From positions 1 to 39,600 of the forward strand of contig JAHHIL010000053.1 in the NCBI GenBank assembly GCA_019358975.1: a DNA stretch of 39,600 bases. The letters are read 5' to 3'. The notes under the pieces were generated by a model. It was not told where the DNA came from, did no database searches, and saw only the letters and a program-made list of their open reading frames with translations. This document shows, piece after piece, positions 8,361 to 30,233 of this stretch (the stretch's first letter is position 1; every line of letters starts with the position of its first letter). The DNA is from Trichocoleus desertorum ATA4-8-CV12. Lineage in GTDB: Bacteria > Cyanobacteriota > Cyanobacteriia > FACHB-46. A program made the position numbers and the translations under genes.

Positions 8361-8692
8361 TCAACCTATCCCTCTAGTAGCGATCATTTATTTCTGTAGC
8401 CGCAAGAAACTCATAGCAATCCTTTTTGATTCTTGAACGGGGTGCAGGGGTTTTATCCCTTCGTGGGACAGTGCCCCCATGCCCTTTGTTCACAAAACAT
8501 TTGTGATCGCTATATCAGCCAGAACCAAGCTGAAAATTAAAACCTACGACTCTTCTGGAGTTGCGAAAAACTAAAGCTTACTAAGTTTATTTTGAAGCAA
8601 GAATTGCCATTCCTCTATCCACATCTTTTATGGACTGATAGAATGTTTTGATACAAAAAATCAAGAAAGTTTCAAATAAGGGTTGTGGGGCT
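8361..8692. promoter_or_regulatory. divergent intergenic region between flavoprotein and LysR genes
   Basis: About 330 bases separate the two divergent starts and must hold both promoters and probably the LysR operator. A G/C-tract segment at about 8440-8485 resembles the dispersed intergenic repeats of cyanobacteria. The rest is A/T-rich, especially 8560-8650. I could not pick out one convincing T-N11-A LysR box or a -10 element by eye. Confidence 0.5.
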
Positions 8693-10699
8693 GTGGAGGT
8701 TTATCAAATTCGGGTTTTTCTGGAAGTTGCGCGACATTTAAGCTTTACTGAGGCGGCAGATATCCTGAATTTGACCCAGCCTGCGGTGAGTGCCAAAATT
8801 AAAGCCTTGGAGTCAGAAATTGGCACTTCCCTTTTCTATCGTCTAGGTCGCAAGATTCAGCTCACAGAAGTCGGTCGATTTCTATTGGCTGAAGGTCAAA
8901 AGATGATTGATTTAGAAAATAATTTACTCAAAACGATTGAAGAAATTAAACAGGGGAAATTGGGTCAATTGAAGGTAGGCTGCACGACTGCGATCGCTGA
9001 AGACTGGCTACCTGAGGTGCTTTTTCGCTATCGTCAACAGCACCCTGATATTCAAACTCAGTGTGTTGTATTTGAATCAGCCGAAAGTTTGCATCGAGCT
9101 TTGACCAGCAACCAAATTGATTTAGGTATTTCAGAAATTAATTTGGGTGAGTTTGCCGAAATATCAGCTACAGCGATCGCCCCTATTCACTATGCTTTGA
9201 TTGTGGCAACCAACCATCCTTTAACCAAACAGAAATGGTTAAGCTTAAAGGAGCTGCAAAAACAAAATTGGGTGATGCTTCCTGCTAGTTCTACCAATCG
9301 CCTCATCTTGGAATCTCGATTAACCGAATTAGGGCTATCAATCGCTGATTTTTCTCAGATTGAAACTGTTGATACTTTAAGCTTGGTACGAACTTATTTG
9401 ACTCAAGGAAATTATGTAGGATTTGCCTCAGATCTTGAATTCAAAGCTGAGCGGCAATCCCGTATTTTGACGAGCATTCCACTCCAAGAATTTCCTTTGC
9501 CAGGGAATGTGTTTTTGTTGTTGCCCCAGCGCTTAAGTCAGTCAGCTGCACTGCCCAGCGATCGCTCCAGTCGTAAAGCTTTGAGCTTAAACCCAATCCA
9601 AAAATTTGTGGCTCTGGTGCAACCTGCTCCAGCTTCTCCCGCTGCTGACTCTCCGGCAAGAGAAACCTCTGTGCGACTGCGATCGCCTAGTTTAATTACG
9701 CGATCTCATCAAACTCATCACCCTGAAACGATCACCATTCGGATTGGTATGCAAAATGCTACGATTCCTACGGTGACAGGAGGTTTGGTAATTCAGCGCT
9801 TAGGCTTGCTAGAACATTTCTTGCCTAGAAACGGTCGCTACAGTTCCACTCAATATCAGATTCAGTGGCAAGATTTCTCGCTGGGTGCTCCCATTATTCA
9901 AGGGTTACAGTCAGGGCAACTAGATATTGGCTTACTAGGCGACTATCCTTCCCTACTCAGCGCCGTTCCTCCTTCAGGTTCTCCCCATCCAGTGACTAAA
10001 ACTCGCTTGGTCAGTTTTGTCTCTGCCAATCCAGATGGTTCCTGTAATGCCGTGATTGTGCCCCACGAATCCAAATTAAATAGCTTGGAAGACTTGCGGG
10101 GTCGAGTGATTGCGGTTCCCTTCAGTTCTTCCGCCCACGGTATGGTGATGCGATCGCTACAAGCAGCCAATCTCTTGTCAGACGTGACCATTGCCGCACT
10201 GGATCAAGCGAATCTCAACCGTCCCTTCCAGCACCCAAACAAATTGGCAGACGGATATGCCCACTTTGCACCCTTCCACGCGATCGCCTGTCGGCAAGGC
10301 AAGTTTCGTTATCTGCTGGACGATGACTTAAGCGGTCTCCCGGCATTTCATGCGGTGGTAGTGAGTGAAGTTCTAGCAGAACAACATCCAGAGATCGTAA
10401 TTGCTTACTTAAAAGCTTTGCAAGCGGCTCAATATTGGTGTGCCAATACATCCTCCGCATTACCGTTGATTAGCCGTTGGACTCAGCTTGATGCCGAAAT
10501 CATTGTACAACTCCTTAGCAGCACCTTCCAGAAGCAACAACCAGACCGTTTCTTCTCTGAAATGACTATTCGGCCTGATTGGATCGCCCAACATATCGCT
10601 CAACTCAGCCTCATCCCAGGCAATGAGAACCTAAAAGCGATCGACCTCAACCAATGGATTCAATCTGATCTCCTGCAAACCGCCAAATCCCAAATCTAA
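8693..10699 (+). CDS. LysR-type regulator fused to an ABC-type substrate-binding domain
   Basis: The first 300 residues are a normal LysR regulator: a winged HTH (MEVYQIRVFLEVARHLSFTE, then ILNLTQPAVSAKI) and a LysR effector domain. After a Pro/Ala/Ser-rich linker (about 310-343) comes a second domain of about 320 residues that is not part of LysR proteins. It matches the receptor encoded at 12667-14160 block by block: TVTGG, LDIGLLGDYPS against IDIGMMADFPS, NAVIVP against NAVVVP, SSAHGMV in both, HPEIVIAYLKAL against NPEIVVAYLKAV. There is no signal peptide, so this domain should act in the cytoplasm. GTG 8693 is preferred over the in-frame TTG at 8648, because LysR proteins begin at the MEVYQIR position and a GGGG tract precedes it. 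It probably controls the divergent flavoprotein operon and the convergent ABC operon. It is unusually large, 668 residues against about 300. Confidence 0.92.
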   Translation: MEVYQIRVFLEVARHLSFTEAADILNLTQPAVSAKIKALESEIGTSLFYRLGRKIQLTEVGRFLLAEGQKMIDLENNLLKTIEEIKQGKLGQLKVGCTTAIAEDWLPEVLFRYRQQHPDIQTQCVVFESAESLHRALTSNQIDLGISEINLGEFAEISATAIAPIHYALIVATNHPLTKQKWLSLKELQKQNWVMLPASSTNRLILESRLTELGLSIADFSQIETVDTLSLVRTYLTQGNYVGFASDLEFKAERQSRILTSIPLQEFPLPGNVFLLLPQRLSQSAALPSDRSSRKALSLNPIQKFVALVQPAPASPAADSPARETSVRLRSPSLITRSHQTHHPETITIRIGMQNATIPTVTGGLVIQRLGLLEHFLPRNGRYSSTQYQIQWQDFSLGAPIIQGLQSGQLDIGLLGDYPSLLSAVPPSGSPHPVTKTRLVSFVSANPDGSCNAVIVPHESKLNSLEDLRGRVIAVPFSSSAHGMVMRSLQAANLLSDVTIAALDQANLNRPFQHPNKLADGYAHFAPFHAIACRQGKFRYLLDDDLSGLPAFHAVVVSEVLAEQHPEIVIAYLKALQAAQYWCANTSSALPLISRWTQLDAEIIVQLLSSTFQKQQPDRFFSEMTIRPDWIAQHIAQLSLIPGNENLKAIDLNQWIQSDLLQTAKSQI

Positions 10700-18213: not shown

Positions 18214-19527
18214 TCATCCGGTTACGATTCCCTGGCAAGTGCCCAAACCAATCCGGGCATAGCCAGGTTTTTCGCAGTAGCCTCGTAAAATCACCTCATC
18301 CCCATCAACTAGAAACGATCGCACTTCTCCGGTCGGTAGTTCGATAGGGTGGGCACCGCGTTGGGTGATTTCTAACAAACATCCTTGGGACCCTGGCTCT
18401 GGTCCAGAAATGGTGCCACTAGCGATCAGGTCAGCAGGACGAAGATTACAACCGTTACTGGCGTGGTGGGTGAGCATCTGCGCCAGGGTCCAATACATCT
18501 GCTGCAATGACCCTCGGCTGACCTGTATAGGTTCCATACCTGCTGCTCGCATTTGAGCGGAGCACAACAGCACTTCTACCGTGAGATCAATCCCTCCTTG
18601 CTGGCGATCGCGCTCAGAAGATAGATAAGGTAGAGGTTCTGGATCTCCCTCAGCTCGCGGAAAGGCAGAACCACGAAAAGGAGCCAGAGCTTCTAAAGTC
18701 ACTACCCAAGGAGAAATACTAGTGGCGAAGTTTTTGGCAAGAAATGGGCCTAAAGGCTGGTATTCCCAAGCTTGAATATCCCTGGCAGACCAATCGTTGA
18801 CTAAACACAGTCCAAACAGATAATCCTCAGCCTGGTCAATGGCGATCGCCTCTCCCAACTCATTACCAACCCCAATCAAAGCGCCAACTTCCATCTCATA
18901 GTCGAGCATTTGACTGGGGCCAAAGCTCGGTACTGTTGCATCCGGTGGTTTGCGCTGACCATTGGGACGCTTGATTGGTGTGCCACTCACTACGATTGAA
19001 GAAGCTCGCCCATGATAAGCGATCGGCACATATTTGTAGTTAGGCAGCAAGGGATTGTCGGGGCGGAACAACTTGCCGACATTAGTGGCATGAAAAACAG
19101 AAGCATAAAAGTCTGTATAGTCCGCGATCGCCGCAGGTAGCAGCATCTCCGCATCCGACATCGGCAAGAGAAGATCGGGAGTAACAGATTCATTCTGCTG
19201 AGGCGATCGCAATAGTTGACTCAAGCGCTGCCGTAACGCCGATGCAGATTGATTTCCCAGAGCCATTAGAGCATTGAGATTAGAATCCACACATGCTGCT
19301 TGCAAGTCCCCAGGGAGTCCTTCTAGTAATCCCCGCTCATGACACTGTAAGAGATCTAAAATCTGATCGCCGATCGCTACGCCTAGCCGAGGATACTCGG
19401 TGCTATTACGCCTACGAAAGACACCCAAGGGCAAGTTTTGAATCGGAAAGTCTGTGTCCGGTTGGTTGGCAGATTCCACCCAACTCCGCAAGTTTGGGTC
19501 ATGCGTGGCATTGATGGCAGAAGACAT
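18214..19527 (-). CDS. fahA: fumarylacetoacetase
   Basis: This enzyme hydrolyses fumarylacetoacetate to fumarate and acetoacetate, the last step of tyrosine/homogentisate breakdown (EC 3.7.1.2). The N-terminal SH3-like domain (LGVAIGDQILDLLQ) precedes the FAH core with DYTDFYASVFHATNVG, YHGRASS, DYEMEVGALIG (metal-binding acidic residues) and DWSARDIQAWEYQPLGPFLAKNF (the last Lys being catalytic). It is 437 residues from ATG 19527. A TTG two codons earlier has a better-spaced GGAGG, so either may be used. It follows fadE on the same strand after 115 bases that include a hairpin. No homogentisate dioxygenase is in the window. Acetoacetate produced here could enter the neighbouring thiolase pathway (inference). 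Confidence 0.95.
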   Translation of the reverse strand: MSSAINATHDPNLRSWVESANQPDTDFPIQNLPLGVFRRRNSTEYPRLGVAIGDQILDLLQCHERGLLEGLPGDLQAACVDSNLNALMALGNQSASALRQRLSQLLRSPQQNESVTPDLLLPMSDAEMLLPAAIADYTDFYASVFHATNVGKLFRPDNPLLPNYKYVPIAYHGRASSIVVSGTPIKRPNGQRKPPDATVPSFGPSQMLDYEMEVGALIGVGNELGEAIAIDQAEDYLFGLCLVNDWSARDIQAWEYQPLGPFLAKNFATSISPWVVTLEALAPFRGSAFPRAEGDPEPLPYLSSERDRQQGGIDLTVEVLLCSAQMRAAGMEPIQVSRGSLQQMYWTLAQMLTHHASNGCNLRPADLIASGTISGPEPGSQGCLLEITQRGAHPIELPTGEVRSFLVDGDEVILRGYCEKPGYARIGLGTCQGIVTG

Positions 19528-19586
19528 AGGCAACTGAACCTCCCTTGTAGGGTCTTTGGTGTACGCACAAATGACCTAACCCCCAG

Positions 19587-19641: not shown

Positions 19642-22095
19642 TTACGCATGTTGCATTAGTTCGTGGGTGGGCCAAGTGGTGATTTGTGCGCCTTGTTGGT
19701 ACTCTTCTAGCGAGAATGCATCTACCTGAATGGCTTCATTACGTGCAGCTTCGGCTTCTCGGATTAGAGCCGCTGCTGCTGCCGTAATCACACCCGTTGC
19801 TAAAGCTGCATCAATCAGTTGTTCTGGTTTGGCGGGTGCTAATTTGCCCTCACGAATAGCAGTTTTAATTGTTTGCAGGATGCCTTCGGCTTGAATCGAG
19901 AGATGGAAGGCTTGCTCCAATCGTCCTAATGCTTCATCAGGATGGGAAGGAACGTAGATATTGGTAGTGAGGCGATCGCGCACCGCTCCAAGTATCTCTA
20001 CACTTTGAGCCAATTTACCACCGAGTTCATCGGTTGGCATCGTACCAATAGGATTAAGCCGCCACCACCAGAGGACTGGACCCTGGAAGGCTTGACCCAA
20101 AACTGGAATCGATAGGTTCGCAAACAGCCCTTCAAATGCCAGTTGAATCTGAGCAAAGGCATATTGCATCGACCAATGTACCAAAGGGAGATCTTCTGGG
20201 TTGCGTCCTTCTGCTTCGTAGCGGCGCAGGGTTGCCATGCCTAGATACATCCAGGAGAGAACATCGGCAAAACGTCCGGTTAGTTTCTCCCGCCGCTTCA
20301 AGGAACCGCCAAAAGCAATTAAGGCTATGTCTGTGAGAGTGGCGAAGGTAGCGGATGCCCAAGCAAGTTTGCGGTAATACTGCGCCGTGGGGCCAGAGAC
20401 AGGAGACTGAGCGATCGCCCCACGAGAGAGGCTGAGCAAAATCGCTCGGATGCTGTTGCGGACTAGCAAGCCGATGTGATGCCAGAGCGCATGGTCAAAA
20501 GCGATCGCATTTCCCTCCTTGAGAGCTATCACTTCTTGATAAACATAAGGATGACAACGAATCGCGCCCTGACCAAAGATCATCAGGGTACGGGTGAGAA
20601 TATTTGCGCCTTCCACTGTGATTGGGATGGGCATGGCCGTGTAAACATTAGCCAACAAGTTACGCGGGCCTTTGCAAATCCCCGAACCACCAAGGATATC
20701 CATGCCATCATTCACTAACTTGCGCGATAGCTCAGTGAATTGATATTTGGCGATCGCGGAGACAACTGCTGGCTTTTCCCCATTGTCTACGGCGGCACAG
20801 GTGCAGATGCGAGCGGCTTCCATCAGGTAGGTGAGTCCAGCAATCCGAGCCAACGGTTCCTCTACGCCTTCAAAGCGCCCAATCGATAGCCCAAACTGTC
20901 GTCGTACCACTGCGTGGGCACTGGCAACTCGCGTCACCAATTTGGCGATTCCGGTACAAGAGGCTGGGAAACTGATGCCACGGCCTGCTGCCAAGCTTTG
21001 CATCAACATCTTCCAGCCTTGGCCTGCCTGCTCGCTACCGCCAATAATCTGGTCAATGGAAACGACGACATTATGACCTTCAACCGGAGAGTTGTAAAAT
21101 GGCACTCCCATTGGATCGTGGCGTTTGCCCAACACTAGACCCGGTGTATCTGCTGGAATTAAGGCGCAGGTAATACCAACGTGTTCTCCTTTGCCTAAAA
21201 GATTTTCGGGGTCGCGGAGTTTGAAGGCCAAGCCGATTAGGGTAGCGATCGCGCCTAAAGTGATATAGCGCTTGCGGAAGTTCAACAGCAGATATAGTTT
21301 CTCATCCTCACCCCGGAACACAATCCCCTCTGAGGTGATACTGGCAGCATCAGAACCAGCAGTGGGTTCAGTGAGAGCAAAACAAGGCATCTCCTCTCCG
21401 CGCGACAACCGAGGGAGATAATAATCTTTTTGCGCTTGAGTACCGTAGTGCAACAGCAGTTTGGCGGGGCCAAGGGAATTCGTCACCCCAACCGTAGCGG
21501 TGTGGATAAACGATCGCGATGCTAATTTCACCATCACCGCACTGTATGTCAGATTGGAGAAACCTAACCCGCCATACTCCTGCGGAATCATCATGCCAAA
21601 GAAACGCTCTCGCTTCAGGTAGCTCCACACCTCCGGCGGCAAGTCTTTACGGCGATTGATTTCCCAATCCGTCGCCATACGGCAAACCTGCTCTACAGGC
21701 CCATCAATGAATGCTTGAGCCTTGGCTGACAGGTTTGGATAGGGTTCATTGCTCATCCGTTTCAAGTTAGGTGCGCCAGAGAAAAACTCTCCATCGACCC
21801 AAACCGTTCCTGCCTCGATCGCCGCTTTCTCGGTGTCAGAGATACTAGGCAACAACTTCAAGGCCTGAATCGCTTGCATCAAGGGAGATGTCAGGAGCGA
21901 TCGCCGTAGCAAAGGGAGATTTAGCACCAGAGCTATAATCCCGAATCCGATCCATAACCAGACAGGTGCTTGAAAAACGGCTAAAACACTCGCTGTATAA
22001 AGTGACCAAGCCAAGAGCGGCACTCCTAAATAACCCAAAATCAGGAAGAGAACCAGGGAAAAAGAGAGGGCGATCGCGAAGGGAATAGGAAACAT
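19642..22095 (-). CDS. fadE: membrane-associated acyl-CoA dehydrogenase, FadE type
   Basis: It catalyses the first oxidation of acyl-CoA to trans-2-enoyl-CoA with FAD. The 817-residue length matches E. coli FadE (814) rather than the roughly 390 residues of soluble acyl-CoA dehydrogenases. The N-terminal 60 residues hold two membrane helices. The core has CFALTEPTAGSDAAS, YITLGAIATLIG, RRQFGLSIGRFEG and the catalytic Glu in ITVEGANILTRTL. The C-terminal part is the FadE-specific helical extension (DUF1974). It is third in gene position from thiolase, followed by fahA. Several HIP1 octamers inside the gene indicate long residence in a cyanobacterial genome. FadE is rarely seen in cyanobacteria. 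Confidence 0.93.
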   Translation of the reverse strand: MFPIPFAIALSFSLVLFLILGYLGVPLLAWSLYTASVLAVFQAPVWLWIGFGIIALVLNLPLLRRSLLTSPLMQAIQALKLLPSISDTEKAAIEAGTVWVDGEFFSGAPNLKRMSNEPYPNLSAKAQAFIDGPVEQVCRMATDWEINRRKDLPPEVWSYLKRERFFGMMIPQEYGGLGFSNLTYSAVMVKLASRSFIHTATVGVTNSLGPAKLLLHYGTQAQKDYYLPRLSRGEEMPCFALTEPTAGSDAASITSEGIVFRGEDEKLYLLLNFRKRYITLGAIATLIGLAFKLRDPENLLGKGEHVGITCALIPADTPGLVLGKRHDPMGVPFYNSPVEGHNVVVSIDQIIGGSEQAGQGWKMLMQSLAAGRGISFPASCTGIAKLVTRVASAHAVVRRQFGLSIGRFEGVEEPLARIAGLTYLMEAARICTCAAVDNGEKPAVVSAIAKYQFTELSRKLVNDGMDILGGSGICKGPRNLLANVYTAMPIPITVEGANILTRTLMIFGQGAIRCHPYVYQEVIALKEGNAIAFDHALWHHIGLLVRNSIRAILLSLSRGAIAQSPVSGPTAQYYRKLAWASATFATLTDIALIAFGGSLKRREKLTGRFADVLSWMYLGMATLRRYEAEGRNPEDLPLVHWSMQYAFAQIQLAFEGLFANLSIPVLGQAFQGPVLWWWRLNPIGTMPTDELGGKLAQSVEILGAVRDRLTTNIYVPSHPDEALGRLEQAFHLSIQAEGILQTIKTAIREGKLAPAKPEQLIDAALATGVITAAAAALIREAEAARNEAIQVDAFSLEEYQQGAQITTWPTHELMQHA

Positions 22096-22226: not shown

Positions 22227-23408
22227 CTAAAGCATCAGGTTTTCAATCACGCCCGCAGCGCCCATGCCGCCACCCACGCACATCGTCACTAAGCCGTAGC
22301 GCACACCCCGGCGTTTCATCTCATGCAGGATGGTAGCGGTGAGTTTGGCTCCGGTCATACCAAGTGGATGTCCTAGAGCGATCGCGCCACCATTGACGTT
22401 GATGATCTCCTCGTTGAGACCCAGTTTACGGATTACCGCTAGAGACTGGGCTGCAAAAGCTTCATTGAGTTCAATCAAGCCAATGTCATCTATGCTTAAG
22501 CCGACTTGTTTGAGCACTTTAGGAATCGCTTCGACTGGGCCAATTCCCATCACTTCTGGAGGCACACCAGCCACAGTGAAACCCAACAACCGCCCCATTG
22601 GTTTTACGCCCAATTCATCTATCTTGCGTTGGCTCATGATGATTGTGGCGGCAGCTCCATCCGACATTTGGGAGGAATTTCCCGCCGTCACACTCCCGCC
22701 CATGCGGAACACAGAGGGCAGTTTGGCTAAAGCTTCCAGACTGGTATCCGCGCGTGGACCTTCATCCACTTGGAACATCATGTCTACAGTTTTGAGTTCG
22801 CCATCGACATACAACGTCTCGTGGATAGGGAGCGGAATGGTTTCTTCCTCAAATTTGCCTGCTTGAATGGCTGCTAAAGCTCGCTGGTGCGATCGCAAGG
22901 CAAAGGCATCTTGGTCTTCGCGAGAAACATGATATTGCTGCACCACATTCTCAGCCGTCAATCCCATCGTGCAGTAAACTTGCGGCGTGGAAGTCATCAG
23001 GCCTGGGTTAGGCAGCATGGCATGACCCCCCATCGGGATCAGGCTCATGGTTTCGGCACCCCCCGCCACCATCACGTCGGCTTGTCCGGTCATTACCGCT
23101 TGAGTCGCCATCGCGATCGTCTGCAATCCCGACGCACAGAAGCGGTTTACGGTACAGCCTGCAACCGTGTCAGGTAATCCTGCTCGCTGGGCAATCACTC
23201 GCCCCAAGTTAAATCCTTGCTCCGCTTCAGGGAAGGAGCAACCTACGATGATGTCATCAATCTCCTTTGGTTCTAGCCCTCCGACTTTGGCGATCGCTCC
23301 CTTGACTGCGATCGCGCCCATATCGTCAGGACGCATGTTACGGAGGGTACCACGGGGCGCTTTACCCACTGCCGTCCGAACGCTGCTCACAATATATGCA
23401 TCTTGCAT
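22227..23408 (-). CDS. fadA: acetyl-CoA acyltransferase (thiolase)
   Basis: It cleaves 3-ketoacyl-CoA with CoA to give acetyl-CoA and a shortened acyl-CoA, the last beta-oxidation step. The catalytic set is complete: nucleophile Cys91 in NRFCASGLQ, His347 in [10 protein letters not shown] and Cys377 in CVGGGMG. The 393-residue length is normal. AGGAG lies eight bases before the ATG. A biosynthetic acetoacetyl-CoA thiolase (PhaA type) is the alternative, but the location between fadE and the hydroxyacyl-CoA dehydrogenase/hydratase gene favours beta-oxidation. HIP1 sites are frequent in the gene. Confidence 0.93.
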
Positions 23409-23542: not shown

Positions 23543-25882
23543 CTAATTTCGCAACGGTTTCTTCGTCTTCAACATATGGGCGATCCGCTCTTGGGTTTTG
23601 GGTTGGCTGAGGAGCGGTAAGAAGTTCTCCCGTTCTAGGCGCAACAGGTAATCTTCGTGCACGAGAGTGGGAGCAGAGAGTTCGCCGCCTGTCATCACAT
23701 AAGCTAACTTTCCTGCCAAGTAGCGATCGTATTCGCTGGCAAACCCACCTTGTTGAAACACATAAGCGATATGTTCCAGCATGGCTCTGGCGGGACGACC
23801 CAAGACCATAATGGCGGTTTGCTCAGGTGGTGCTGCATAGCCTGCGCGATCGAGATGGAGTACTTCGGCTTTGGCCACCTCCAAGCGATTCTCACCGCTG
23901 ATTAAGATGCGGGCATCACAGGGGAGATATCCCATCTGTTGGGCTTCGTAGGCACTGCTAGAAACCTTCGCCATCGCGATTGTTTCAAAGGCAGCTCTTA
24001 GGAACGGTTGGATATCACCGGCTGATTCGCTGGCGGCTCGTTCTGTCACTCGGGCCACGGTTCGCATAATGCCACCCGCGCCTGGAATCAAACCTACACC
24101 TAGCTCAACCAAGCCAATATAGCTTTCAGCGGCAGCAACGACATGAGGACAGGCCATAACTAGCTCACAACCACCCCCCAAGGCTCGTCCTTGCATGGCG
24201 ATCACGATCGGTTTGGGAGCGTAACGGATGCGCTGGAGAATTGATTGAAACTGGACAATCAAGTCGTCCAACGCTTGGAGATTGCCAGATTGGGCGGTCA
24301 TCCCCATTTCAGCCAAATTCGCACCACCGGAGAAGTGATCGCTACCGTTGCCAATCACCATGCCTTTCAAGTCGTCCCGCTCCTCTATGAGATCCAAAAC
24401 TTCCGATAGCCCTTCTACCACTTTGAAGCTGAGGGTATTGCCTTTAGAACGGAATTCATACAGCGCTACACCATCCCCCAAATCTAACAAAGCGGCTTCA
24501 GCATTCTGCCACAGCATCCGTTGTGGATCTGTTTTGATCGCTCCCAAATCAATTTTGTCCACCGTAGGGGCGGATTCAGCCAATACTCCTTGCGATTGAC
24601 TACCATGCCTGCCTCCGAATCCTTCGCCCTGCCGATGCATCGTTTCTACCCAATTGGGCACCGTGATATTAGCTGCCTTCATATCTGCCAATATGGTGTC
24701 AAATCCCAGCATCTCCCAAATTTCAAACGGACCCACATCCCAACCAAAGCCCCAGCATATGGCTCGGTCAATATCAGTAGGGCTATCCGCGATTTCAGGG
24801 ATACGACGGGCGCTATATCCGAGCAAGTCTAGGGTCGTGGTGCGGAAGAACTGACCTGCTCGACCCGAATCTTTGTAGAGTGCTTGCAGGCGATCGCGCA
24901 AACTAGACAACTTCCCTAATTTTTCCACCTCGCCCAAATCTATTGGCTTAGCAGACTCATAGCTCATTGCTTCAGGATTGACGGAGAGAATTTCACCCTT
25001 CTGTTTTTTATAAAATCCCTGTCCTGCTTTGGCACCGATCGCCCCTGCCATGACGAGTTTGTGCAGCACCTCTGGCACCCGGAACATTTCCCGACTTTCA
25101 TCGTGAGGAATGGCGGGATAGAGGTTTTTCGCCACATACATCAGCGTGTCTAAGCCTACGAGGTCAGCGGTGCGGAAGGTGGCTGATTTGGGTCGTCCTA
25201 CGAGGGTTCCTGTCAGCGTGTCGATCTCCTCGATTGTGTATCCTTGCTCTGTCCAAGCTCGTAAGCCTTGCATCGTGGCATACATACCGATGCGGTTGGC
25301 AATAAAGTTGGGGGTGTCTTTGGCAATCACCACGCCTTTCCCTAAACGAGTTTCGCCAAACCAGCGCATGCGGGCCACGACTTCTGGAGCAGTATCAGGC
25401 GTTGGGATAATTTCCAGCAGTTTCAAATAGCGGGGCGGATTAAAGAAATGCGTGCCTAAAAAGCGTTGACGGAAAGCATCTGATCGACCTTCTGCGATCG
25501 CATGAATGGGCAAACCGCTGGTATTAGTAGAGATCACGGCATCATGCCGCAGCACTCCTTCCAGGCGTTGCATCAGTTGTTGCTTGATATCCAAATTCTC
25601 AACCACGGCTTCGATCACCCAATCTACTTTCGCTAGGCGATCGAAGTGTTCTTCAAAATTACCGAGGATGACGCGATGAGCCACTTTGTCAGTAAAAAAG
25701 ATCGGTGGAGATAGCTTGCGGGCTTTCTTAAAGGCTCCTTCCACTAAACCATTTTTATTCCCTGTCTTAGCAGGGAGATCCAATAGATGCACAGTCAGAC
25801 CGATGTTGGCGAGGTGAGCGGCGATCTGGCTCCCCATGACTCCTGCACCCAGGACAGCGGCGGTTCGAAATGGCTTAAACAT
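23543..25882 (-). CDS. 3-hydroxyacyl-CoA dehydrogenase/enoyl-CoA hydratase fusion
   Basis: A bifunctional beta-oxidation enzyme that hydrates enoyl-CoA and oxidises the 3-hydroxyacyl-CoA with NAD. The N-terminal Rossmann domain (VLGAGVMGSQIAAHLANIG) and dehydrogenase motif (GTHFFNPPRYLKLLEIIPTP, catalytic His) come first, then the dehydrogenase C-terminal domains. The crotonase domain lies at about 450-680, with GRALGGGCEL and VELGVGLIPGAGG supplying both catalytic Glu residues. This order, dehydrogenase first, is the FadN type of Gram-positive and many other bacteria, not the E. coli FadB order. The length of 779 residues fits FadN. A GGGAGAG lies eight bases before the ATG. It lies between the thiolase and AMP-ligase genes in the same orientation, with short gaps. 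Confidence 0.93.
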   Translation of the reverse strand: MFKPFRTAAVLGAGVMGSQIAAHLANIGLTVHLLDLPAKTGNKNGLVEGAFKKARKLSPPIFFTDKVAHRVILGNFEEHFDRLAKVDWVIEAVVENLDIKQQLMQRLEGVLRHDAVISTNTSGLPIHAIAEGRSDAFRQRFLGTHFFNPPRYLKLLEIIPTPDTAPEVVARMRWFGETRLGKGVVIAKDTPNFIANRIGMYATMQGLRAWTEQGYTIEEIDTLTGTLVGRPKSATFRTADLVGLDTLMYVAKNLYPAIPHDESREMFRVPEVLHKLVMAGAIGAKAGQGFYKKQKGEILSVNPEAMSYESAKPIDLGEVEKLGKLSSLRDRLQALYKDSGRAGQFFRTTTLDLLGYSARRIPEIADSPTDIDRAICWGFGWDVGPFEIWEMLGFDTILADMKAANITVPNWVETMHRQGEGFGGRHGSQSQGVLAESAPTVDKIDLGAIKTDPQRMLWQNAEAALLDLGDGVALYEFRSKGNTLSFKVVEGLSEVLDLIEERDDLKGMVIGNGSDHFSGGANLAEMGMTAQSGNLQALDDLIVQFQSILQRIRYAPKPIVIAMQGRALGGGCELVMACPHVVAAAESYIGLVELGVGLIPGAGGIMRTVARVTERAASESAGDIQPFLRAAFETIAMAKVSSSAYEAQQMGYLPCDARILISGENRLEVAKAEVLHLDRAGYAAPPEQTAIMVLGRPARAMLEHIAYVFQQGGFASEYDRYLAGKLAYVMTGGELSAPTLVHEDYLLRLERENFLPLLSQPKTQERIAHMLKTKKPLRN

Positions 25883-25929: not shown

Positions 25930-28014
25930 CTAGTAAATCGGCAATCTTGCGAACGGATGAGGCACGGTCAAACTCGTACAAAGAATGAACGTGGTTAAAC
26001 GATTAATCCGAGGTAAGGATTGGGCAAAGGCAGGGCAGGCAGCAGGTGAAACAGACGGGTACACGCTCGATAGGTCAGTTTCAGGAGATTGAGGAGACAT
26101 AGAAGCTGCTTTTTGCTTATCCTTATCCTTATCTTTCCCCCGCCTTGGTTCTGATTCTCCGTACAAAGTGCCAATTTCTTTAGCAAAAGTTTTACTAATC
26201 TGAGTCCGGTTCAGTTGCCCTGTTGGAGTTAGTAAGCCGTTTTCTACGGTAAACGGATTGTTGATCAGTTGAAAGCGTTTGACAATCGCCCAGTAAGGCA
26301 AATGACAATTGGCGGTATCGACCAAAGCTTGGTAAAGCGCTATGACATGAGGATGTGTGAGGAGGGCATCAGGTGGAAGATCAATCCCCACTCCTAAAGC
26401 ATAGCTATGGAGAGCTTGTAAGTCTAGAACGATCAGGGCGGCACAGAACTTTTGGGCCGAGCCAACGGCAATTACCTGAGCTACCAAAGGAGACTGCTGT
26501 AAGCGCTGCTCGATTGGTTGAGGTGCAATATATTTACCTGTGGCGAGTTTGAAGAGAGACTTCTTCAGACCTGTAATTTTTAGGAAGCCGTCTTCTGTAA
26601 ATGTACCCAAATCGCCTGTATGCAGCCAACCTTGCTGATCGACTAGTTCCTGGGTTGCTTTGGGGTCTTTGTAGTAACCGGAAGTGACACAGGGGCCACG
26701 CACCAAAACTTCGTGATCTTCTGCGATCGCCACCTCAATGCCCGCGATCGGCACTCCCACTGTACCTGCGCGGTTAAAAGAGCCACGATTGCAGCACACC
26801 ACAGCACTAGCTTGAGTGAGACCATAACCGTGTAGGATTGGAATTCTAGCCGCTGCAAAGACATTAACTAATTCTGCCTTGAGTGCAGCTCCGCCACAGA
26901 TCACGTATTTAAGGCGACCCCCCAAAAGCGATCGCCATTTTGACAGCACTAACCAATCAGCCACCCTGAGGAACAGGGCATATAAGAGGTTGGGTTGGCA
27001 GCCAATTTCATAGCGCTTGGCTAGACCCAGAGCCCACAGAAGGGTGAACTGAGTGAGCAGAGAACTAGTTGTACTTCCCTTCTCTACAATCTTGCTATAT
27101 ATCTTCTCCAGCACGATCGGCACTGTCACCAAAATTGTTGGCTGCACCTCCTGGAGATGTTTGGTAAGACGACTAGCATTAGAGAAATAAATACTGTGCC
27201 CATAAAGGATATGTCCATAGAGCATTGTCCGAGCTAGCACATGGTTCAACGGAAGAAACGACAATACTGTTTCCTCACTGCCTTTACCCAGCGTAGTAAT
27301 ACCTGAGAAGGCGGCAAAAGCGTTCATAGAGAGGTTTTCATGGGTTAGCATCACCCCTTGCAATTGCCCAGCTTCATCCGGGATATAGATGATTGTGGCT
27401 AAATCATTGGGTTTTGGAATTGCTTGTAGAACTGGCGTTGCCTCGCTTGTCTCTAGGATGGGCTTGCTACTTTGCACCTCATCAAGAGACATCAGTGAAA
27501 CGGGAAACGATTGGAGCCATTGCGATCGTTGCTCTGTCCAGTTCTCAGGCACATCTACCAACACAATATGCTGTAGGTGAAGAGTTTCTCCTAAGTGTGG
27601 CGCGATTTGTGCTAACAGCTCTAGATCGGCAATGACCAAAGCCTTAGCTTCACTATGTTGCAGCACAAAAATAATTTGCTCTAGGGTGTGAGTGAGATCG
27701 ATTGGTACATCCACCAAACCTGCCCAGAGACAACCTATATCAGCCAAACCAAAGCTGACATCGCTATACATCAATAAAGCGACGCGATCGCCGCTCTCCA
27801 AACCCAATTCCTGCAAACCTAACGCACAGGCTGTAGCAGCAGTCCGAAAGGCTTGATTAGATAGTGATTGCCAATTTGTGCCCGTCCATTGATTCAAGGC
27901 TTGAGCATTTGGGGCTTGGGCACAAGCCTCATTGAGCAACGAGGGTATCGTGCGCCCCAGAACGACCCTGCCAGAGTTAGGAGGAGCCTGGTAAGTTTGA
28001 TTCATATGCGACAT
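25930..28014 (-). CDS. AMP-binding acyl-CoA ligase homologue with degenerate catalytic motifs
   Basis: A 694-residue member of the long-chain acyl-CoA synthetase fold, positioned as the first gene of the fad cluster. The overall layout is clear, including GVMLTHENL, CGGAALKAELV, GYGLTQ, GWLHTGDLG and GKYIAPQPIE. Several catalytic positions are changed. The ATP P-loop reads IPDEAGQLQG (residues 211-220) where TSGTTGxPKG is expected, so its Lys is Gln219. The Mg-binding Glu of GYGLTE is Gln401, the ribose-contacting Arg of ITGRKK is Leu483, and the A10 lysine of TGKLxR is Gln600. The Asp of GDLG is kept. Residues from about 630 on form a low-complexity tail (KDKDKDK, then Ser/Pro-rich) beyond the normal end, coded by a tandem hexamer. 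ATG 28014 or 28005 may be the start. It may not activate fatty acids itself. Confidence 0.85.
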   Translation of the reverse strand: MSHMNQTYQAPPNSGRVVLGRTIPSLLNEACAQAPNAQALNQWTGTNWQSLSNQAFRTAATACALGLQELGLESGDRVALLMYSDVSFGLADIGCLWAGLVDVPIDLTHTLEQIIFVLQHSEAKALVIADLELLAQIAPHLGETLHLQHIVLVDVPENWTEQRSQWLQSFPVSLMSLDEVQSSKPILETSEATPVLQAIPKPNDLATIIYIPDEAGQLQGVMLTHENLSMNAFAAFSGITTLGKGSEETVLSFLPLNHVLARTMLYGHILYGHSIYFSNASRLTKHLQEVQPTILVTVPIVLEKIYSKIVEKGSTTSSLLTQFTLLWALGLAKRYEIGCQPNLLYALFLRVADWLVLSKWRSLLGGRLKYVICGGAALKAELVNVFAAARIPILHGYGLTQASAVVCCNRGSFNRAGTVGVPIAGIEVAIAEDHEVLVRGPCVTSGYYKDPKATQELVDQQGWLHTGDLGTFTEDGFLKITGLKKSLFKLATGKYIAPQPIEQRLQQSPLVAQVIAVGSAQKFCAALIVLDLQALHSYALGVGIDLPPDALLTHPHVIALYQALVDTANCHLPYWAIVKRFQLINNPFTVENGLLTPTGQLNRTQISKTFAKEIGTLYGESEPRRGKDKDKDKQKAASMSPQSPETDLSSVYPSVSPAACPAFAQSLPRINRLTTFILCTSLTVPHPFARLPIY

Positions 28015-28914: not shown

Positions 28915-29799
28915 TCAGTACCGCACCACACAAAGCCCTAAAGCCTCACAAACTGGGCTTCCTGCCAGATGTCTTTCTAGCCAGTTCTCTAAGTCTGCAA
29001 ACATTTTTTGGTAGTCTACATCTACGTAGAGATCGTGATAACACCCTGGGTATTCATGATGTTCTTTATCGGAGAACATGACTTGCTGAAAGAAAGCCCG
29101 ACTACTCTCTGGATGAATGACCTGATCGGCACTGCCATGAAGCAGCAACAAAGGAATCTGTAAATCAGAGGCATGTTTGTAGATCCAATCCACAGTCATA
29201 AAAAATTCTGTGGCTAATCGGGCACTGCCATACTCATGTCGGAGCGGATCTTGGGTGTAGCTAACCAGTAGGGTGGGATCTCGTGATCCTAAATTAGAAG
29301 GTATGCCCAATCTCAAACTAAAGCGGGGAAAGATACCGGAAAGCAGTTTTCCTACCATGAGCTTGCCACGGGAGACAGAAACTCTGCCCAGAGCAGGGGC
29401 GGAGACAATTAGCCCCTGTAAAGGATCTGGCGATCGCAGGGCATAATCTAGCGCGATCGTGCCGCCCAAACTATGTCCCCACAAGAAATAAGGGCAAGGG
29501 CAACTAGCGCGTTGAGCCTGAATATGTTGGAGAAATGCCCGCAGGTCTTCTCGGAACTCGGCCCATGACCCGATATGACCTCGCTGACCAGGGGAGCGTC
29601 CATGCCCCCGTAAATCAAAGGCATAAACCTCATATTCCTGACCTACTAAATACTGCACCACTTGGACAAACAAGCTGCTATGCGCTCCTAAGCCATGTAC
29701 CATGACTACCACAGCTTGGACCTGTGCGTCTGGATGCCAGCTTTGATAATAGAGATCGAGTCCACCGAGTCCCTTAAACTTCCCTTCAATACGTCTCAT
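28915..29799 (-). CDS. alpha/beta hydrolase, monoacylglycerol-lipase-like
   Basis: A 294-residue serine hydrolase of the Hydrolase_4 (lysophospholipase/monoacylglycerol lipase) type. It has the oxyanion segment MVHGLGAHS, the nucleophile Ser110 in WGHSLGG, the acid Asp in LLHGSADQVIHP and the catalytic His in YPGCYHDLYVD. There is no signal peptide. It probably releases fatty acids from glycerol esters. It lies 900 bases upstream of the fad cluster in the same orientation, so functional linkage to fatty-acid breakdown is plausible but not shown. The ATG at 29799 is preferred. An open extension to 29979 lacks family character. Confidence 0.9.
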   Translation of the reverse strand: MRRIEGKFKGLGGLDLYYQSWHPDAQVQAVVVMVHGLGAHSSLFVQVVQYLVGQEYEVYAFDLRGHGRSPGQRGHIGSWAEFREDLRAFLQHIQAQRASCPCPYFLWGHSLGGTIALDYALRSPDPLQGLIVSAPALGRVSVSRGKLMVGKLLSGIFPRFSLRLGIPSNLGSRDPTLLVSYTQDPLRHEYGSARLATEFFMTVDWIYKHASDLQIPLLLLHGSADQVIHPESSRAFFQQVMFSDKEHHEYPGCYHDLYVDVDYQKMFADLENWLERHLAGSPVCEALGLCVVRY

Positions 29800-30233
29800 C
29801 ACAATGCTCCACAAACGTTTATGACATCGTTGCGGCCTAGGATGCTGTAGCTTGCTGAGAGCTAGGTAGGGTAGAGAGGCATACCAAAAGATGCAAATTC
29901 TTGGCAGAACTGCGTCTCGCTGAATAATAGTTAAATTTCTGTGCTCAACTCTGCTGTGATATGAACAACAGATGTGCAAGAAGTTAATTCAGCACAAATA
30001 ATGCTGCTCCCATCTACTTTTATCTATGAGCGACAGCCTAGACCGCGACTACCTGTTGAGGAGCCTGTTGAATACTAAACTTTGATGATTAGAAGTCGTT
30101 GTGCATCTTTTAGTAGTATATCTAACCAAAATTGGGGTCGCACCCGTATCCTTGGGTAGAAATTTTAGATGTCTCAGGATAACTGTAAGGACGAATAGCC
30201 ATCATTGATTTATTGAGTAGGCTGTTAAGTGAC
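29800..30233. other. intergenic region, nothing recognised
   Basis: About 430 bases without a supported gene or RNA. It includes the promoter region of the leftward hydrolase gene. Short open stretches on both strands do not look coding. Confidence 0.5.

Follow-up and report, generated by a model that had tools for sequence, protein, structure and literature searches.

The window, meaning the whole stretch of 39,600 nucleotides analysed here (contig JAHHIL010000053.1 of Trichocoleus desertorum ATA4-8-CV12, positions 1 to 39,600), carries on its reverse strand a gene cluster in the order α/β-hydrolase, acyl-CoA ligase homologue, FadB, FadA and FadE. The hydrolase is lipase-like (Hydrolase_4 in the domain search) and occupies an ORF at 28915–29979, inside which its true start probably lies. 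It is situated 900 bp upstream of the ligase homologue, a putative pseudo acyl-CoA ligase of 694 residues at 25930–28014, referred to in the following as LIG. After a gap of 47 bp comes FadB (23543–25882), in which the HADH domain precedes the crotonase domain and the residues His145, Glu157, Asn192, Glu573 and Glu593 are present; its best NCBIfam match, NF052272, reaches 661 bits and stays under the cut-off of 999. FadA (22227–23408) is a thiolase with Cys91 and His347, and FadE (19642–22095) is an acyl-CoA dehydrogenase that shows ACDH_C in the domain search and a hydrophobic N-terminus (windows starting at 1–17 and 35–46). An HADH–crotonase fusion, a thiolase and an acyl-CoA dehydrogenase also stand in a row in the Bacillus fadNAE operon; in the window, by contrast, FadE belongs to the ACDH_C type known from E. 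coli, and the hydrolase and LIG stand at the head of the row. Scans for promoters and terminators returned no more than shuffled sequences did. A fumarylacetoacetase gene (18214–19533) follows FadE in the same orientation, 108 bp further downstream; the stretches fetched from the same genus end within FadE, and whether relatives share this gene is not visible there. Elsewhere in the window, at 8648–10699, a LysR-type regulator is fused to an NMT1-like substrate-binding domain and adjoins ABC-transporter-like genes and an FAD-binding oxidoreductase.

By its sequence, LIG is a long-chain acyl-CoA ligase homologue of the ANL superfamily. Pfam finds AMP-binding (PF00501, 1.3e-55) followed by AMP-binding_C_3 (PF23562, 1.4e-9), and an AlphaFold2 model computed from 33 aligned sequences has a mean pLDDT of 87.5 and a pTM of 0.87. 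According to these data, an N-domain (residues ~20–482) and a C-domain (~483–620) are followed by a low-confidence linker (621–646) and a tail motif (660–667), with pLDDT values below 50 at residues 621–646 and 671–694, such that the two-domain AMP-binding fold that defines the superfamily is satisfied by both Pfam and the model. The nearest solved folds are acyl-CoA ligases (Z about 42–43), with the N-domain of mycobacterial FadD13 on top (3t5c, VIA Z 43.0, rmsd 2.2, 375 aligned; see also 3r44), while the best solved relative by sequence is the A domain of carboxylic acid reductase (5msc, 6.8e-30; see also 6oz1). Both of these are adenylating enzymes; unlike them, LIG has no intact ATP site, and it also lacks the reductase domain. 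A first, sequence-only reading of this DNA had described the fold as well kept and the frame as intact over about 2 kb, and both points hold, given the Pfam domains, the model and a frame that starts with ATG and runs through all 694 residues of the window translation without an internal stop.

The same reading had listed IPDEAGQLQG, GYGLTQ, ITGLKK and TGQLNR in place of the adenylation motifs, and they are indeed present. The phosphate loop A3, canonically TSGTTGxPKG, reads IPDEAGQLQG (residues 211–220; 27355–27384, reverse strand, as are all motifs of LIG); A5 reads GYGLTQ (396–401; 26812–26829), with Tyr397, Gly398 and Thr400 kept; A7 retains TGD with Asp468 (466–468; 26611–26619); A8 reads ITGLKK with Arg483 replaced (480–485; 26560–26577); and A10 reads TPTGQLNR, with Gln in place of the catalytic Lys600 (596–603; 26206–26229). 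That these motifs stem from faulty assembly of the window can be rejected, as two genomes of the same genus (93% and 89% identity) have the same motifs.

To place these changes, we aligned 38 orthologues with a reference set of 18 canonical homologues. The orthologues are those of the window, of the two same-genus genomes, of 31 named loci and of four genomes sampled within the window's class; the reference set combines eight proteins from the phylum's other classes with three Aas-like ones from the window's own genus and seven further sequences. Thirty of the named loci are titled cyanobacteria and one (L049) Candidatus Gracilibacteria. Motif columns were scored only where at least 17 of the 18 canonical homologues agree, and split frames bring the number of rows to 39 at some columns. 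Neither Thr211 nor Ser212 of A3 is kept in any of the 38 orthologues, and Gly213 is retained in 29%. Arg483 of A8 is likewise lost throughout (Leu in 20, Val in 14, Ile and Met in two each), and Lys600 of A10 survives in a single row of 36, that of L046, an interrupted frame, with the position otherwise drifting among Q, E, T, S and R. By contrast, Gly398 is present in all rows, and Tyr397, Thr400 and Asp468 in 97% of 39. The earlier statement that all main adenylation residues are replaced must accordingly be narrowed: it applies to the Thr-Ser of A3, the Arg of A8 and the Lys of A10, but not to the kept positions of A5 and A7. Similarly, the change from GYGLTE to GYGLTQ is true of the window but not of the family, since Glu401 is retained in 59% of rows and Gln is found only in the window's subclade. 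A Fisher's test for a concentration of losses in motif columns (9/19 versus 4/27, p = 0.022) gave a modest result, with motif bounds that we chose ourselves.

For the functional weight of these positions we draw on a mutated enzyme that we take to be 4-chlorobenzoate:CoA ligase, whose mutant positions we mapped onto LIG ourselves. In that study, single substitutions lowered activity 2,000-fold for the A3 Thr, 1,000-fold for the A3 Gly and 100-fold for the A8 Arg, but merely 4-fold for the A3 Lys (PMC8388817). Two sources place the A7 Asp and the A8 Arg next to the ribose, A5 next to the adenine, the A10 Lys next to the α-phosphate and A3 next to the phosphates (PMC8388817, PMC6122825). We infer that LIG, in all probability, does not adenylate fatty acids. 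The retention of A5 and A7 could be purely structural.

Three main motif types can be distinguished within the family: IPDEAGQLQG with GYGLTQ, as in the window, IPGATGKLQG with GYGLTE, and IASETKRPKG with GYGLTE, with intermediates between them. All are without the A3 Thr-Ser, the A8 Arg and, except in L046, the A10 Lys. What is left of the motifs varies from type to type, which is the pattern to be expected from a single loss of catalysis followed by drift at the other positions. In the tree, the 35 LIG rows included form one clade (support 100/100), the stem of which measures 1.45 changes per site; three of the 38 (L042, L049 and L050) were omitted as split frames, and the nearest outgroup is weakly placed. 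The predicted loss of adenylation across the clade is well supported. The sequence-only reading had suggested looking for the same substitutions in orthologues and determining dN/dS among homologues, and it would have been refuted by orthologues with canonical motifs at the same locus. None of the 38 has them, and dN/dS between same-genus copies of LIG is 0.086–0.103, indicating purifying selection. This is somewhat higher than for FadB (0.058–0.072), FadE (0.053–0.071, partial sequences) and FadA (0.027–0.032), with 0.057–0.099 for the hydrolase. Within LIG, the C-domain has values of 0.04–0.06 and residues 621–694, which comprise the linker and the tail, 0.17–0.21, and the A3 stretch shows 0–1 non-synonymous changes. 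By sequence, LIG satisfies that part of the definition of a pseudoenzyme which asks for an orthologue-shared loss of a catalytic motif under purifying selection.

Furthermore, the family has acquired features of its own. At 31 columns, LIG proteins are at least 95% fixed for residues that are rare in canonical ligases, including His268, His273, His286, Cys524 and a block ANCHLPYW (residues 568–575; 26290–26313), of which Cys570, His571, Pro573 and Trp575 are found in 38 of 38; for the last three of these columns, in the tail, merely 1–3 canonical rows reach that far. This tail, CPAFAQSL in the window (residues 660–667; 26014–26037), follows the consensus CPxxAxSL and ends the protein, after a linker of variable length, at 36 of the 37 C-termini that could be assessed; the exception, L121, has CPIFTQSL, and the L047 frame continues past the edge of its contig. 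It is kept even in L044 and L051, where much of the A10 region is missing. A search with the tail peptide in six genomes recovered it in LIG in five, with all other matches at E > 2, although this is a weak test that missed the tail of G207 itself. In the window, LIG continues for 27 residues past the conserved tail (PRINRLTT...; 25933–26013), where several relatives stop at NPRLTT; this has the appearance of a minor frame shift close to the terminus, common to the three same-genus genomes.

The neighbourhood of LIG is conserved as well. FadB follows it at 29 of the 31 named loci; in the two remaining cases, the contig breaks off with LIG or shortly behind it. Carriers of the operon include Chlorogloeopsis fritschii PCC 6912 (L029) and Nodosilinea nodulosa PCC 7104 (L044). 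FadA is found at 27, FadE at 23 and the upstream hydrolase at 20 of these loci, several of which end at contig or fetch limits, although L023, which lacks the hydrolase, does have room for it. In one genome, hydrolase and LIG form a single in-frame fusion of 1,021 residues (G189; C57, L183 11145–14207), and in another (G181) one stop codon alone separates their stop-to-stop frames. A role of LIG as a scaffold or regulator, as proposed in the sequence-only reading, fits the operon, this fusion and the conserved tail, in the absence of interaction data. The catalytic residues of FadB and FadA are intact, although a FadB Ser motif had no match in the window in the form searched: counted by column over the rows that have it at the 34 loci examined, FadB retains His145, Glu157 and Asn192 in 32 of 32 and the crotonase pair Glu573 and Glu593 in 30 of 30, and FadA retains Cys91 in 30 of 30 and His347 in 29 of 29.

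The FadB type of the window (E up to 1e-100) is rare, occurring in six of 291 sampled genomes of the phylum; in G037, the view of the FadB neighbourhood is limited by a contig of 7.7 kb. Five of the six belong to the window's class, and they are exactly those sampled members of the class that have LIG (E up to 1e-90) and FadE. Seven further genomes of the class have other HADH genes, in frames of 286–300 residues, and some other HADH use in them is not excluded. ETF gave no match in any of the 38 genomes with LIG; it is present in nine of nine genomes of other classes, eight of which have canonical ligase homologues and three also FadE. For G003, G009 and G018, ligase and FadE lie on separate fetched stretches. 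The absence of ETF may simply be general in cyanobacteria, and the control genomes with a match to it do not include Synechococcus elongatus.

We also considered that a canonical ligase elsewhere in these genomes performs the activation and found no candidate type that is consistent across the 38, although any of them could serve in some. Of the 38, three pass the cut-off of NF004837, a FadD-type model, and 19 match it at 1e-80; an Acs-like protein of the L021 type is present in 20. The window's own genome has 22 AMP-binding matches, 16 of them in frames of at least 1,125 residues (NRPS-type from length alone); the remainder are Acs, FAAL-like, MenE, Acs-like L021, Aas-like and LIG. For AMP-binding_C_3, 33 of the 38 genomes give exactly two matches and the other five give three; the second protein besides LIG is of Aas type, judged by frame length. 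The corresponding protein of the own genome (L013), which we take to be Aas, the cyanobacterial acyl-ACP synthetase, matched no NCBIfam model at 1e-100. It has the superfamily and C-domain type of LIG, but it carries canonical motifs, lies outside the operon and is 28% identical to LIG. Given the absence of both a consistent FadD-type ligase and ETF, the entry and the electron exit of standard β-oxidation both look changed in genomes with LIG.

Among the closest known proteins, the bacterial long-chain ligases with AMP-binding_C_3 (FadD11-like, NF038343), including the eight from the phylum's other classes (L123–L130), share the domain order of LIG and are homologous over its full length. LIG scores 272.6 bits against NF038343, for which the cut-off is 950, and is 33–37% identical to the eight. 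Unlike LIG, these keep A3 as TSGTTGxPKG, A5 with its Glu as GYG(L/M)TE and A8 with its Arg as DRKK in eight of eight, and the A10 Lys in seven. The A10 motif of the remaining one, the otherwise canonical L123, reads TPKLSLKRR, without the usual Lys. Another, L125 (1483–4290), has an in-frame N-terminal stretch of ~320 residues without a Pfam match.

To account for these observations, we propose that the ancestor of LIG was an ATP-dependent long-chain acyl-CoA ligase. It would have lost adenylation once, on the stem of the cyanobacterial clade, and would then have been retained as a non-catalytic subunit of a module of lipase and β-oxidation enzymes. Unable to make acyl-AMP, as we infer, LIG may still have a binding site for an acyl chain, for an adenine nucleotide or CoA, or for both, and its C-domain and tail may dock it to the hydrolase and to FadB, FadA and FadE, where it would receive or present the fatty acyl group or gate the pathway. 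Activation would then be left to a different protein. The simplest candidate would be the Aas-like acyl-ACP synthetase, besides which 33 of the 38 genomes have no AMP-binding_C_3 protein other than LIG. The clade-wide losses, the kept fold and adenosine side (A5/A7), the purifying selection, the linkage, the newly fixed residues and the tail can be read from the sequences, while the docking is inferred from the operon position, one gene fusion, co-occurrence and the conserved tail. Without data on binding, interaction or expression, we give the explanation as a whole, a non-adenylating acyl-binding and docking subunit between lipase and β-oxidation enzymes, about an even chance of being correct. 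It would also be conceivable, albeit unlikely, that β-oxidation has been rebuilt at both ends, with acyl groups entering without a dedicated ATP-dependent acyl-CoA ligase and being passed on by LIG from the lipase or from acyl-ACP, and with the electrons of FadE leaving without ETF, perhaps straight to membrane quinones.

In published work, cyanobacteria are said to have no complete β-oxidation (PMC7181335, PMC6123915), and a further paper calls the pathway incomplete in them (PMC11546870). A minority nevertheless has a FadE-FadB-FadA set with intact catalytic residues in FadB and FadA, and in every sampled genome of the class with this set, the gene at the ligase position encodes an apparent pseudoenzyme. 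The LIG-Fad cluster offers a set of defined genes with which it can be tested whether cyanobacteria are able to burn fatty acids, and should LIG serve as a carrier or gate, one of the most widespread enzyme folds in biology would here be used without adenylation. We found no publication on the LIG gene in the open-licence literature. Pseudoenzymes as such are already known, while an old pseudoenzyme with a ligase fold that is fixed in a β-oxidation operon is new as far as that literature reaches. The AdoMetDC prozyme of T. brucei (PMC5201418) and a plant indole pseudoenzyme (PMC12727527) are likewise dead relatives beside working enzymes, but they have other folds and belong to other pathways, and for LIG the assisting role is inferred.

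LIG might itself act in the manner of a prozyme, pairing with the Aas-like enzyme, its closest catalytic relative within the cell, and tuning the activity of that enzyme or its acceptor from ACP to CoA. That dead paralogues can activate a live one has precedent (PMC5201418), and the 33 genomes with exactly two AMP-binding_C_3 proteins, LIG and the Aas type, would suit such a pair; the two proteins are, however, distant in sequence and not adjacent, and we consider this quite unlikely. LIG might also have changed its chemistry and act as an ATP-independent acyl transferase that, for instance, loads CoA with acyl groups taken over from the hydrolase or from the acyl-ACP that Aas produces, by means of the GKY loop retained in A8 and the new Cys and His residues. 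Acyl-CoA must have some source in genomes without a consistent canonical ligase, and Cys524, Cys570, His571, His268, His273 and His286 are fixed in the family. On the other hand, these residues may serve structure or binding, none of the positions was inspected in the model, and we know of no ANL fold that acts as an ATP-independent acyl transferase. While different chemistry at the new residues is thus not excluded, we regard the transferase as improbable. We judge it equally improbable that LIG is still an acyl-CoA ligase with an altered and weaker ATP site: the fold, A5 and A7 are kept, PKG or Glu401 survive in some subclades, L046 has its A10 Lys and the locus is one where an activating enzyme is needed, but the complete loss of the A3 Thr-Ser and the A8 Arg, together with that of the A10 Lys in 35 of 36 rows, and the drift at the A10 position, as at an unused site, speak against it.

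Slow decay in a dispensable operon, although the operon is rare (five genomes of the class among the 291 sampled), four of 38 frames are interrupted and L044 and L051 have lost much of A10, is very improbable in view of a dN/dS of about 0.1, 34 frames without an internal break, the new fixed residues and a tail that outlasts A10. Local decay was likewise rejected as the main reading on account of the shared losses, the selection and the single clade, and the earlier preference for a pseudoenzyme over a decaying gene is supported by these and by the intact active sites of FadB and FadA. The interrupted frames (L042, L046, L049 and L050) may reflect errors in drafts or MAGs, or real local loss. 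At L049, the whole cluster lies on the contig titled Candidatus Gracilibacteria, part of a 6.0 Mb record set, though the LIG encoded there is similar to the Hydrococcus protein; this is probably a MAG that is mixed or wrongly labelled.
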